From Pelagerythrobacter marinus (GTDB taxonomy: Bacteria; Pseudomonadota; Alphaproteobacteria; Sphingomonadales; Sphingomonadaceae): DNA of 64,000 nt. Made by a program: the position numbers and the translations under genes. Under the pieces are notes generated by a model that was not told the DNA's origin, ran no database searches, and was given only the letters and a program-made list of their open reading frames with translations. Shown here piece by piece: positions 54,711 to 59,237 of this stretch (positions are counted from its first letter, which is position 1; every line of letters starts with the position of its first letter). The stretch spans positions 291,501 to 355,500 of the forward strand of contig NZ_WTYO01000001.1 in NCBI RefSeq assembly GCF_009827515.1. The letters are read 5' to 3'.

Positions 54711-54953
54711 TCAGAGATCGACCCCGCTGGCAATGGCTTCCAGCTTGCGGATGCGTTCCTTCAGGTCCGCGATCTCGATCCGCGCTGCGCCCAGTTGCGC
54801 GCCGCCCTCGATCTCCGGCGGCGGGCGGCGGCCGGCGCGGTCCAGTTCGCGTTCCTTGAGCGAAAGCCAGCCCTGCCAGCCGCGCAGCGCGGCGAGGGCG
54901 ACGATGCCGATGGCGACGAGCGCTGCGGCGGCGATGACGATCTGGTCGCTCAT
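54711..54953 (-). CDS. Small PspB/PspC-module membrane protein (fifth copy)
   Basis: An 80-residue protein: one N-terminal helix (IVIAAAALVAIGIVALAAL) and a C-terminal coiled coil ending RIRKLEAIASGVDL. It is the most divergent and shortest of five tandem small proteins sharing the R-x3-L/V-E-x-I/L module of PspB and PspC. AGGAG precedes the ATG at 54953. A 51-base gap separates it from the previous gene. Function unknown; association with the Psp system is inferred. Confidence 0.75.
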   Translation of the reverse strand: MSDQIVIAAAALVAIGIVALAALRGWQGWLSLKERELDRAGRRPPPEIEGGAQLGAARIEIADLKERIRKLEAIASGVDL

Positions 54954-55004
54954 GGGCAATGCTCCTTTCCCTCTTGTCCTCCGGCCCCGTTCCCGCGGCC
55001 GTCG

Positions 55005-55274
55005 CTACTTGTCGCGCAGGCGCTCGATCTCGTCGGCGATCGCGCGCGCCTCGCGCCCGTCCACGGTGATCTTCTCCAGCACGCGGATCCGTTCGCGCAG
55101 GTCCTCTATCTCGCGCCGGGTCTCCGCGTCGGCGGCACCGGCCCCGGTCGCCTCGCCGGCGTCGGCGCCGTCGGCCGGGCGGTCCCGGCCGGGGCCGCGT
55201 TCGCGCCGCGCGTTCATGACCTGGACGATGCCCCAGATGGCGACGATGACGACCGCGGCGGTCCAGAAGCTCAT
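55005..55274 (-). CDS. Small PspB/PspC-module membrane protein (fourth copy)
   Basis: An 89-residue protein with one N-terminal helix (WTAAVVIVAIWGIVQVM), a short Gly/Ala/Asp-rich linker and a coiled coil with RIRVLEKITVDGREA and IADEIERLRDK. Its ATG overlaps the stop of the third copy (ATGA), so translation is coupled. See the neighbouring entries for the family. Confidence 0.78.
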   Translation of the reverse strand: MSFWTAAVVIVAIWGIVQVMNARRERGPGRDRPADGADAGEATGAGAADAETRREIEDLRERIRVLEKITVDGREARAIADEIERLRDK

Positions 55275-55558
55275 TGCACTTGCTCCCTCTCGTCGGCGAG
55301 GCGCAGCGCGTCGATCTCGCGCGCGAGGTCGGGGCTGCGGTCGGTCGCGATCCGTTCGAGCACCTGGAGCCGTTCCTCCATCCGGCCGATCTCGGCATCG
55401 GAGCGCTGGCGCCCTTTCGCCTCGGCCAGGCGCACTTGCAGTTCCAGTTCCTTGCTGCGGTGCTTCATCCGGCTCTCGTAAGCGCTGAGGACGATGCCGG
55501 CGGCGACGATGAAGCCGACGATCAGCGCGCAGAAGGCGATCGCTTCGGGCAGGCTCAC
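55271..55558 (-). CDS. Small PspB/PspC-module membrane protein (third copy)
   Basis: A 95-residue protein: N-terminal helix (IAFCALIVGFIVAAGIVL), then a long charged coiled coil with RLQVLERIATDRSPDL and REIDALRLADER. It overlaps both neighbours by ATGA. The shared module places it with PspB/PspC rather than with any enzyme family. Confidence 0.78.
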   Translation of the reverse strand: MSLPEAIAFCALIVGFIVAAGIVLSAYESRMKHRSKELELQVRLAEAKGRQRSDAEIGRMEERLQVLERIATDRSPDLAREIDALRLADEREQVQ

Positions 55559-55872
55559 TGGACCTTGTCCTTCGCCTGGTCGTGGCGCAGGCGCTCGATC
55601 TCGTGGGTCAGGCCATAGCCGCTGTCGGTGACGATCCGCTCGACATTGGCCAGCCGGTCCTTGATCGATCCCAGCTCGGCCCGCAGCTCGGCGTTCTCCT
55701 GCGTCAGCAGCTTGACCCGTTCGACCGCCTGGTCGTTCTTGGGATAGACCGCCTTGCCCCAGCTGTTCTCGAGCGGGTAGCCGTTCTTGACCCGGATCCA
55801 GGTATTGGCGACCCAGCCCAGCGACAGCGCGATCACCGCGCCGATCACGGCGGTTTCGGTCATGAATTCCAT
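55555..55872 (-). CDS. Small PspB/PspC-module membrane protein (second copy)
   Basis: A 105-residue protein: N-terminal helix (AVIGAVIALSLGWVANTWI), a short linker (VKNGYPLENSWGKAVYPK) and a coiled coil with RLANVERIVTDSGYGL and HEIERLRHDQ. Its ATG shares one base with the TAA of the first copy. Confidence 0.78.
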   Translation of the reverse strand: MEFMTETAVIGAVIALSLGWVANTWIRVKNGYPLENSWGKAVYPKNDQAVERVKLLTQENAELRAELGSIKDRLANVERIVTDSGYGLTHEIERLRHDQAKDKVQ

Positions 55873-56186
55873 TACGCCTTCTCCTTCCGGGCGATGTCGA
55901 GCGGGACGCCGGCGCCTTCGCTCTCGACGCGGTGCTGGTCGCGCAGCGCCTCGATCTGGGTCGACACGTCGTATCCGCGGTCGGTCACGATCCGTTCGAG
56001 CACCCGGACCCGTTCCTCCAGGTCCTTGATCTGGCCGGTATATTGCGCGGCCTTTTCAGCCGTCATCTCGGCGGTCGACTTCGCGTTCATCTCGGCCATC
56101 TTCTGCTGGTGCCGCGACCAGATGGCGACGATCGGGATCATCAGTGCGATGATCGGGATCATCACGCCCAGTACTGCTACGTCCAT
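55872..56186 (-). CDS. Small PspB/PspC-module membrane protein (first copy)
   Basis: A 104-residue protein: N-terminal helix (VLGVMIPIIALMIPIVAIW), a Met/Ala/Glu-rich coiled coil and the clearest module RVRVLERIVTDRGYDV followed by TQIEALRDQ. It starts 21 bases after pspC. It opens the run of five tandem paralogues at the end of the psp operon. Confidence 0.8.
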   Translation of the reverse strand: MDVAVLGVMIPIIALMIPIVAIWSRHQQKMAEMNAKSTAEMTAEKAAQYTGQIKDLEERVRVLERIVTDRGYDVSTQIEALRDQHRVESEGAGVPLDIARKEKA

Positions 56187-56207
56187 TGTCCTTTTCCCCT
56201 TTGCGGT

Positions 56208-56585
56208 TCAGCGCAGCCGCTCGATCTCGGCGGTGAGGCGCGGGTTGGAAGAGACGTAGTACGTCTCGACCTCGGCCAGGCGGCGATCGATGTCGCGCAT
56301 CCGGGCGCGGATCTCGCGCGCGGTGCGCTTCGGGCTCTGCCGCACGCGCTGCCAGTACTGCTGTTCCTCGCGATCGACGTAGAGGTGCGGCGGCTTCTTG
56401 TTCAGCAGGATGCCGGCGAGGAAGTAGAACGGGATCGTCATGCCGCCGGCGAAGAAGGTCAGGCCCAGGAAGCCCAGCCGGACCCAGAAGGCATTGACGC
56501 CGGTGTAGTCGGCAATGCCCGAGCAGACCCCCATCAACTTGGCGTTCTGCTTGTCGCGGTAAAGCGTGGTGCGCGGGCTGTTCAC
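56208..56585 (-). CDS. pspC: PspC-like envelope stress protein
   Basis: A 125-residue protein from a GTG overlapping the pspB stop (GTGA). The PspC domain is clear (KLMGVCSGIADYTGVNAFWVR) with two hydrophobic segments; the C-terminus RLAEVETYYVSSNPRL and AEIERLR is the regulatory coiled-coil module. With PspB it relays membrane stress to free PspF from PspA. Confidence 0.93.
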   Translation of the reverse strand: MNSPRTTLYRDKQNAKLMGVCSGIADYTGVNAFWVRLGFLGLTFFAGGMTIPFYFLAGILLNKKPPHLYVDREEQQYWQRVRQSPKRTAREIRARMRDIDRRLAEVETYYVSSNPRLTAEIERLR

Positions 56586-56878
56586 TGGTGGGCTCCCTTC
56601 TTCTCGGCGAGCAGGCGATCCAGCTCGCGCAGTTTCTCGTTGTCGATCTCGCGGTCGTGGACCAGCCGGGCGGGCTTGAAATCGGGGTTGTCGCTGGCGA
56701 CCAGGCGCTCGACCGTGTCCATCCGCTCGTCGAGCCGCTTGGCGAGGCTGTAGAGTTCTTCCAGCAGGGCCTCGTCGTCGCTGGTGATCGTGGCGGATGT
56801 TTTCCACTTGGTGATATAGTGGAGGATGATCCACGGCAGCGCGATGAAGATCGCGGGAATGATGATCAGCTCTTCCAT
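56582..56878 (-). CDS. pspB: PspB-like envelope stress protein
   Basis: A 98-residue protein with one membrane helix followed by LPWIILHYITKWK and a coiled coil with RMDTVERLVASDNPDF, the PspB pattern. Works with PspC as membrane stress sensor. It lies 3 bases after the pspA stop and overlaps the pspC start. An extra ~30-residue charged tail is longer than in E. coli PspB. Confidence 0.9.
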   Translation of the reverse strand: MEELIIIPAIFIALPWIILHYITKWKTSATITSDDEALLEELYSLAKRLDERMDTVERLVASDNPDFKPARLVHDREIDNEKLRELDRLLAEKKGAHQ

Positions 56879-56881
56879 CGA

Positions 56882-57583
56882 TCAGTCCTCCTTTCCGGCG
56901 TCGCTGCCGCCGGCCTTCTTGCCCAGCGCGCGCTTCATCGCTTCCAGTTCCTCGTCGACCTTGTCCGACCCTTCGAGCGCGGCGATCTCGTCGGCGAGCG
57001 AGAGCTGGCCGCTGTCGTCGGACAGCGAAAGCGCGTCGGCGCGGCCCTCGGCGTAATCGACCCGGCGTTCGAGCTGGTCGAAGCGGCTCAATGCCTCGTC
57101 GGTGCGCTCGGTGCTCATCAGCGTGCGCAGCTTGACGCGGTTCTCCGCGCTTTCGAGGCGCGCGGCGATCGCGGTCTGGCGGCTGCGGGCCTCGCGCAGG
57201 CGATGCTGCAGCTTGGCGATATCCTGCTCGTAAGCGCGCAGGGCATCGTCGAGCACGGCGATTTCCTGCTTCAGCTGCTCGGCCATGTCGGCCGCCTTCT
57301 TCTTCTCGACCAGGGCGGCGCGGGCCAGGTCCTCGCGATCCTTGCTGAGCGCGAGCTGCGCCTTCTCCGCCCAGTCGGCCTGGAGCCGTTCGAGCTTGAC
57401 CGTGTGGCGATGCATCTCCTTCTGGTCCGCGATCGTGCGCGCCGCGCTGGCGCGGACTTCGACCAGGGTTTCCTCCATCTCGAGGATGATCATGCGGATC
57501 ATCTTGGCCGGGTCGTCGGCCTTGTCGAGCATGTCGTTGAAATTGGCGGCGATGATATCGCGGGTACGGCTGAATATGCCCAT
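56882..57583 (-). CDS. pspA: Phage shock protein A
   Basis: A 233-residue coiled-coil protein of the PspA/IM30 family starting MGIFSRTRDIIAANFNDML, the amphipathic membrane-binding helix, and continuing AADDPAKM-like DKADDPAKMIRMIILEMEE. GGAG lies eight bases before the ATG at 57583. PspA binds stressed inner membrane and otherwise inhibits PspF. The frame stays open for a further 88 codons upstream to a GTG at 57847 that is coupled to the previous gene; because the amphipathic helix normally sits at the N-terminus I prefer 57583, but a longer form is possible. Confidence 0.9.
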   Translation of the reverse strand: MGIFSRTRDIIAANFNDMLDKADDPAKMIRMIILEMEETLVEVRASAARTIADQKEMHRHTVKLERLQADWAEKAQLALSKDREDLARAALVEKKKAADMAEQLKQEIAVLDDALRAYEQDIAKLQHRLREARSRQTAIAARLESAENRVKLRTLMSTERTDEALSRFDQLERRVDYAEGRADALSLSDDSGQLSLADEIAALEGSDKVDEELEAMKRALGKKAGGSDAGKED

Positions 57584-57847
57584 CAAAGGTGCTCCGTTGA
57601 AATTGAAGTCGCCCGACCAGCCGCCGCCGGCCCGGGCGTGCGAGCGGCCCTGGGTCGGGCGTTCGCTGGTGGTGCGTTCGCGCGTGGGGCGGCCCTGCGT
57701 CGGGGTGGGGCTGGTGCGCAGGCGCTCGACCTCCTCGTCGAGGCGCGAGGGGCGGTTATGGGCCGAAGCGTGCGGGGACTGGGGGGTGTCGCGCTCCGGC
57801 CCAAGGGGGGTGGACCTGCCGGTATCGAGATCGGTCGGCTTGCTCAC
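57584..57847 (-). other. In-frame open stretch upstream of pspA (possible N-terminal extension)
   Basis: Eighty-eight sense codons from a GTG at 57847 run without stop into pspA. The encoded sequence is disordered and rich in Pro, Thr, Arg and Ser, with one charged patch RLDEEVERLR that resembles the end of the PspB/PspC module. The GTG overlaps the stop of the 50-residue gene (GTGA), a coupling seen between true genes in this operon. It could give an extended PspA or mark an untranslated leader. Confidence 0.4.
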
Positions 57848-57996
57848 GCCAGCTCAACCTGTTCGCAGCCGATCGTCGCGGCCATTGCCGGCGTCGCCTG
57901 CATCTGGCCGCTGAGCGCCACGAACAGGGCCATCGCGGCGATGCTGGCGATGGAAGCCTGTCCCAGCTTGCTCTGGAAGAAGCGGCGGTCGTACAT
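57844..57996 (-). CDS. Small membrane protein leading the psp operon
   Basis: A 50-residue protein with a basic N-terminus (MYDRRFFQSK) and one hydrophobic helix (ASIASIAAMALFVAL) followed by Ala/Met-rich residues that could be a signal-peptidase site. GGAGG lies ten bases before the ATG, and the sigma-54 promoter ends ~40 bases upstream, so it is the first gene of the transcript. Family not recognised. Confidence 0.65.
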   Translation of the reverse strand: MYDRRFFQSKLGQASIASIAAMALFVALSGQMQATPAMAATIGCEQVELA

Positions 57997-58034
57997 CGTG
58001 TGGGTCCTCCCTGGATCGGTTTCGTTCACCAATC

Positions 58035-58050
58035 AGCAAGGGGTGTGCCA
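58035..58050 (-). promoter_or_regulatory. Sigma-54 promoter of the psp operon
   Basis: Read leftward: TGGCAC-ACCCC-TTGCT, a perfect match to the -24/-12 consensus. It faces the psp operon and lies 100 bases from the divergent pspF, whose product activates sigma-54 promoters. Transcription should begin near 58023. Confidence 0.9.

Positions 58051-58151: not shown

Positions 58152-59237
<1,086 letters not shown>

Follow-up and report, generated by a model that had tools for sequence, protein, structure and literature searches.

Work on damage sensing by PspB and PspC and on the release of PspF has centred on E. coli and Yersinia, where each protein is present in a single copy. In Yersinia, the PspB-PspC interaction is constant, and in the on state the C-terminal cytoplasmic domain of PspC binds PspA and frees PspF (PMC5596341). 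In E. coli, the leucine zipper of PspC (residues 77-98) is needed for its interaction with PspA, and a fragment of residues 69-119 acts on PspA with PspB (PMC3068692). Here we describe a psp operon in a 64,000-nucleotide stretch of the Pelagerythrobacter marinus contig NZ_WTYO01000001.1 (the window; coordinates are positions within it unless a locus is named), in which five small open reading frames, ORF1 to ORF5, follow pspA-pspB-pspC on the minus strand. To judge from their sequences, they are diverged paralogues of the PspB and PspC regulatory subunits; we call such genes extras.

That such duplicates exist is already known: a single sentence in Ravi et al. (2024, PMC11237479) mentions “PspB duplicates” within psp operons, for example AOL22920.1, meaning more than one PspB-like gene per operon, as here. 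The main-text passages of that paper, its supplements aside, do not give classes, order, extent, co-loss, sister-family homologues or a PspA extension, and a partial literature search, which did not cover supplements, found no further reports. The initial annotation of this DNA, made without databases, knew of no described function for such a set; this is correct, although the duplicates themselves had been noted. The class structure, order, family-wide extent, unlinked relatives and PspA extension appear to be undescribed so far.

Like the extras, PspB (PF06667/TIGR02976) has one N-terminal membrane helix, a cytoplasmic coiled coil with the core R-x-x-x-L/V-E and a place in the psp operon. 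The extras differ from it by an added T/S-D break and IExLR tail helix, and a true PspB is present in the same operon. The C-terminal cytoplasmic domain of PspC (TIGR02978, about positions 74-121) shares with them the two-part module in full, tail helix included, whereas the extras have one helix in place of the PspC membrane domain (PF04024), for which ORF1-5 gave no match. PspD and PspG of Gammaproteobacteria likewise belong to the PspF regulon as small accessory proteins; we know of no PspC-type module in them, and they are likened to the extras without sequence comparison.

The C-terminal module of the added proteins

The initial annotation placed five small genes of 80-105 residues 3′ of pspA-pspB-pspC, each with one N-terminal membrane helix, and coordinates, lengths and hydropathy all agree with it. 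The genes are ORF1 (55872-56186; class A, 104 residues, a PspB/PspC-like membrane protein), ORF2 (55555-55872; class C, 105 residues), ORF3 (55271-55558; class I, rare, in 3 loci, 95 residues), ORF4 (55005-55274; class D, 89 residues) and the last gene, ORF5 (54711-54953; class B, 80 residues). By hydropathy, all five have a single N-terminal membrane helix followed by a coiled coil, as in PspB, the helix model of ORF1 being of low confidence. Comparison was made with a sample of 80 psp loci from about 70 genera of the family, the window's own locus included, which together hold 344 extras; a hydrophobic segment sufficient for one membrane helix is present in 329 of these and is N-terminal in 328.

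The full motif, R-x3-L/V-E-x-I-x-T/V-D and then I-E/D-x-LR, is found in ORF1-4 and at the C-terminal end of PspC (RLAEVETYYVSSNPRLTAEIERLR). The same module had been ascribed to all five proteins and to the ends of both PspB and PspC; this stands for ORF1-4 and PspC, whereas PspB has the first half alone (RMDTVERLVASD) and ORF5 the core alone (RIRKLEAIASGVDL), with both T/S-D and IExLR absent and a diverged module ending KLEAIASGVDL. Class consensuses repeat the pattern: R-x3-L-E-R-I-x-T-D, then x-x-E/Q-I-E-x-L-R, in PspC and classes A, C, E, G and I; the same two-part design with a longer spacer in class D; and the first part only in PspB and class B. In alignment with E. coli PspB and PspC, the core R and E are invariant, and the core lies at residues 56-67 of PspB and 97-108 of PspC, where it adjoins the leucine zipper.

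Model searches connect these proteins further. ORF1 matches the NCBIfam PspB model TIGR02976 (expectation value, E, 1.5e-6); for ORF2 and ORF3 the match is to the C-terminal part of the PspC model TIGR02978 (8e-4 and 1.4e-3). PspB models are reached at E<=1e-3 by 7 of 28 members of the extra family. HHalign of family hidden Markov models (HMMs) built from relatives aligned ORF2 with PspC (E 1.7e-8) and with PspB (1.5e-5). A profile comparison of the seven C-termini had been proposed as a check, and the family HMMs indeed connect all seven proteins, ORF5 being joined to PspB and PspC solely via ORF1, ORF3 and ORF4. The modules of ORF1-5 thus have support, at the level of sequence, for shared descent with each other and with PspB and PspC. 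ORF1-4 carry a PspC-type C-terminal cytoplasmic domain; ORF5 is a diverged last gene that is nearly always retained (71 class B members in 80 loci).

A profile built from 28 extra proteins matched ORF1-ORF5, ORF4 among them and ORF5 weakly (5.8e-4), and no other gene of the 3.0-Mb host genome at E<=1e-3. Since this whole-genome search yields these five genes only, we rejected a chance coiled-coil likeness of ORF1-5. The broader idea that the extras are unrelated membrane-anchored coiled coils, alike through heptad composition, could appeal to the weak matches of some extras to generic models (ZapB, bZIP); given that genome search, the recurrence of matches in 188 of 200 family genomes and a two-part motif in which a conserved T-D break is followed by a tail helix, it is scarcely credible. 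In the initial annotation the module was a duplicated stress-sensing module; its common descent is borne out, whereas it resembles the C-terminal, PspA/PspB-binding domain of PspC more than a sensing domain, on a PspB-like topology, and it is not a product of recent tandem duplication, as shown below.

Ancient classes in a fixed order

Extras occur in 79 of the 80 loci, with 1-9 copies (number of extras:loci, 0:1, 1:3, 2:5, 3:8, 4:28, 5:23, 6:7, 7:3, 8:1, 9:1), so that a survey of copy number, suggested at the outset, leaves the window's run as no local oddity. Their median length is 93 residues, and 109 of the 344 overlap the preceding gene. A tree over 342 extras gave seven main classes, whose arrangement divides the family into two halves: D-type loci end in ...D-B (40 loci, e.g., A-E-C-G-D-B) and F-type loci in ...F-B (36 loci, e.g., E-C-A-F-B); the window reads A-C-I-D-B. 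Class order is kept in 398/406 and 193/200 pairs in the D-type and F-type halves, respectively, against shuffled maxima of 0.65 and 0.71, and without the end classes B, D and F it is still kept in 132/140 and 40/44 pairs. Only 4 of 342 extras find their best match inside their own locus, and recent tandem duplication was rejected on this count. Because class order is conserved and own-locus best matches are so few, the array reads, from sequence comparison, as a set of ancient classes in fixed order, sorted by differential loss and exchange, and not as fresh tandem copies.

Selection was estimated by the Nei-Gojobori method as the ratio of nonsynonymous to synonymous substitution rates (dN/dS) between congeners; run positions 2-3, which are non-orthologous between congeners, were left out. 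The ratio is 0.18 for ORF1, 0.23 for ORF4 and 0.15 for ORF5, compared with 0.14 for PspB and 0.10 for PspC, which indicates purifying selection on the extras where they are orthologous. These results bear on the idea that the extras are PspB-like duplicates of little individual function, whose copy number has drifted for the most part neutrally. Copy number does range from 0 to 9, and it varies within one genus; class identity and order, however, are conserved over about 70 genera, the orthologues of ORF1, ORF4 and ORF5 have dN/dS of 0.15-0.23, and recent duplicates are rare, making drift very improbable. As a separate observation, class A proteins and some of class E end in a conserved GAGVPLxxxxKE tail (55875-55920 in the window, the C-terminus of ORF1), which is reminiscent of NGVPL just 5′ of the internal start of PspA.

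The extras also follow PspA across genomes. Of the 200 genomes of the family, 190 have PspA, and all 10 without it also lack extras (hypergeometric 3e-15; about seven genera). In a set of 46 sister-family genomes, the 5 without PspA lack extras as well (9e-5; few independent events). Most sister-family genomes have one or two homologues, mostly unlinked to pspABC; in three loci they stand directly 3′ of dnaG-rpoD, genes recognised by eye (L155 7405-7677, L159 6911-7168, L163 6772-6984). Because no sigma-54 element above background lies upstream of the unlinked homologues, these are probably not PspF targets. In one sister family an extra copy is linked, following pspA-pspB-pspC and a second short PspC-like gene (L156 6798-6966, L162 6039-6276). 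This short gene encodes the PspC membrane domain and lacks the C-terminal module, as though one PspC had become two genes. Beyond the order almost nothing comparable was found; in one genome outside it (G399), two tandem homologues (L171 6227-6694) adjoin apparent dut and coaBC genes, not psp. In a single-protein search, which reaches close relatives only, the named records nearest to ORF1 were those of Erythrobacter/Porphyrobacter.

The operon and the N-terminal extension of PspA

The pspF gene, for the divergent sigma-54 activator, lies on the plus strand (58152-59237; TIGR02974 E 6.1e-144, above cut-off; PF00158 4.5e-61), and a sigma-54 -24/-12 element (TGGCACACCCCTTGCT, minus strand, 58035-58050) with a match score of 15/15 stands 5′ of pspA and the operon, the arrangement of a PspFABC system. 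An element scoring at least 14 is present upstream of pspA in 68/80 relatives, the maximum among the 400 background windows listed being 13.5, and an RpoN gene is present at another site of the host genome. The operon encodes PspA (56882-57583, 233 residues from an internal ATG; TIGR02977 1.2e-82, 276.9 bits against a cut-off of 242.95), PspB (56582-56878; TIGR02976 7.2e-27, 93.5 against 51.7 bits) and PspC (56208-56585; TIGR02978 5e-37, 126.5 against 104 bits), all above cut-off. The initial annotation had the small genes mostly overlapping by 1-4 bases; this is so at three of five junctions (ORF1/2 -1, ORF2/3 -4 and ORF3/4 -4 nucleotides) and not at pspC-ORF1 (+21) or ORF4/5 (+51). A promoter and terminator scan of the run gave a single sigma-70-like site, on the plus strand and outside the run, and terminator-like sites close to shuffled expectation; sufE is the next gene beyond the end of ORF5 at 54711. 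Given the perfect -24/-12 element, the presence of RpoN and PspF and the tight packing, pspA through ORF5 is likely to be one PspF/sigma-54-driven transcription unit, which agrees with the earlier assignment of the small genes to the Psp operon.

The first gene of the operon is a 50-residue ORF (57844-57996, minus strand), a hydrophobic protein starting MYDRRFFQSKLGQASIASIAAM, with a hydrophobic segment or possible signal peptide. It is present in 35/80 family loci, has a dN/dS of about 0.16 and had no match in Pfam or NCBIfam; its product could be a leader or a tiny membrane or secreted peptide. Its stop overlaps a GTG (GTGA), from which a stop-free frame runs into PspA and adds 88 residues (57584-57847, minus strand). 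The extension is conserved as protein, with SRLDxE[IV]E[AR]LRxSPTPTQ (SRLDEEVERLR in the window), a variable linker and FNxGVPL-MGIF, and its dN/dS is 0.26. It is kept, always in frame, in 39/40 D-type loci, as well as in one other locus, and in 0/36 F-type loci; because it is confined to one clade, its origin was probably single. GGAG stands directly 5′ of the internal ATG and could start a short PspA, so that both short and extended forms could be made. In an AlphaFold model of extended PspA, a short helix (residues 35-45; predicted local distance difference test, pLDDT, about 65) lies in a disordered tether that leads up to the first PspA helix of the long hairpin. Since helix alpha-0 of PspA is its membrane-binding helix (PMC12358876), an extension at that end would matter.

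The motif of the extension resembles the helix motif (SRLDxEIERLR) with which PspC and most extras terminate. On a matrix of PspC and extra tails, which was trained on pattern-picked tails and hence leans towards that pattern, the extension core scored 17.7, compared with 8.6 for the best of 18,657 background 11-mers from other window proteins. PspA's own C-terminal LSLADEIAALE also scores high (13.8), and the motif could thus in part be a helix general to Psp proteins. We tentatively suggest, as a doubtful idea, that the extension motif, the PspC tail and the tails of the extras all present the same ligand to a single docking site. PspA's own copy would then compete with, or hand over to, copies on different membrane anchors, and this exchange would act as a switch coupling PspF release to the identity of the engaged anchor.

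A proposed role at the PspBC-PspA assembly

Based on these observations, we propose that the extras are PspC-tail adaptors that join the PspBC-PspA assembly as additional anchors, a reading we hold with moderate confidence. Each extra would be a single-helix inner-membrane protein of PspB-like topology that bears a separate copy of the cytoplasmic C-terminal domain of PspC, made together with PspABC from one PspF/sigma-54 promoter. Because the PspC domain sits on a single membrane helix of its own, the extras would most likely serve as added PspA anchors within or beside the PspBC complex. The class-specific membrane helix and linker could widen or tune the range of membrane states that recruit PspA and release PspF; alternatively, more PspA would be held at the membrane. 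ORF5, having only the module core, would more likely be a structural or capping partner. The proposal is built on homology, hydropathy topology, gene order, promoter type, selection and co-occurrence with PspA; from these we infer that the extras would bind PspA, PspB or PspC and may have some sensing role, and, a step further, that they may sense different inputs.

Several points weigh against this proposal. ORF1-5 fall below the PspB cut-offs (best 28.4 against 51.7 for TIGR02976 and 16.8 against 25.6 for PF06667) and below the curated PspC cut-off as well. The AlphaFold model of monomeric ORF1 is one low-confidence helix (pLDDT 62) and has no bearing on partners; nor do monomer models bear on the still hypothetical several sensors or hetero-oligomeric ring around PspA of the initial annotation. 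Because the sister-family homologues are mostly unlinked and without a sigma-54 element, the family need not have originated within the Psp response. The co-loss of PspA and extras within the family may be the loss of one linked operon, in few independent events. Finally, five species of the window's genus read ACIDB, AECDB, ACADB, ACADB and AECDB, and such variation fits dispensable as well as specialised members.

Among the rivals left open we place downstream effectors first, decoys second and the neutral drift discussed above last. PspBC neutralise secretins, and PspD and PspG may act likewise. The extras could similarly stabilise the stressed membrane or neutralise misplaced membrane proteins, leaving PspF release unaltered; their late operon position and single-helix topology resemble those of accessory psp genes, and Yersinia PspBC has a second, PspA-independent protective role (PMC5596341). 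The extras nevertheless keep a PspC-type cytoplasmic domain under selection, which pure membrane protection would not obviously need, and we regard an effector role as possible and rather unlikely. Less likely again, the extras could be decoys or feedback buffers that compete with PspC for PspB or PspA and so damp or reset the response. Each has the PspC domain but not the membrane part of PspC, its dose would rise upon induction through the operon shared with its target, and PspA in one clade bears the tail helix itself. Competition and co-assembly are, however, equally compatible with this evidence, and several ancient classes exceed what damping would need.

A whole family keeps typically four or five added PspC-tail proteins, in distinct ancient classes and a fixed order. 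If these are added PspA anchors, as we propose, they would form a natural anchor series in which the same cytoplasmic domain is carried by different membrane helices, so that a comparison of single classes could tell the sensing part from the part that binds PspA. The conserved extension, in turn, points to a mode of PspA control that appears undescribed.

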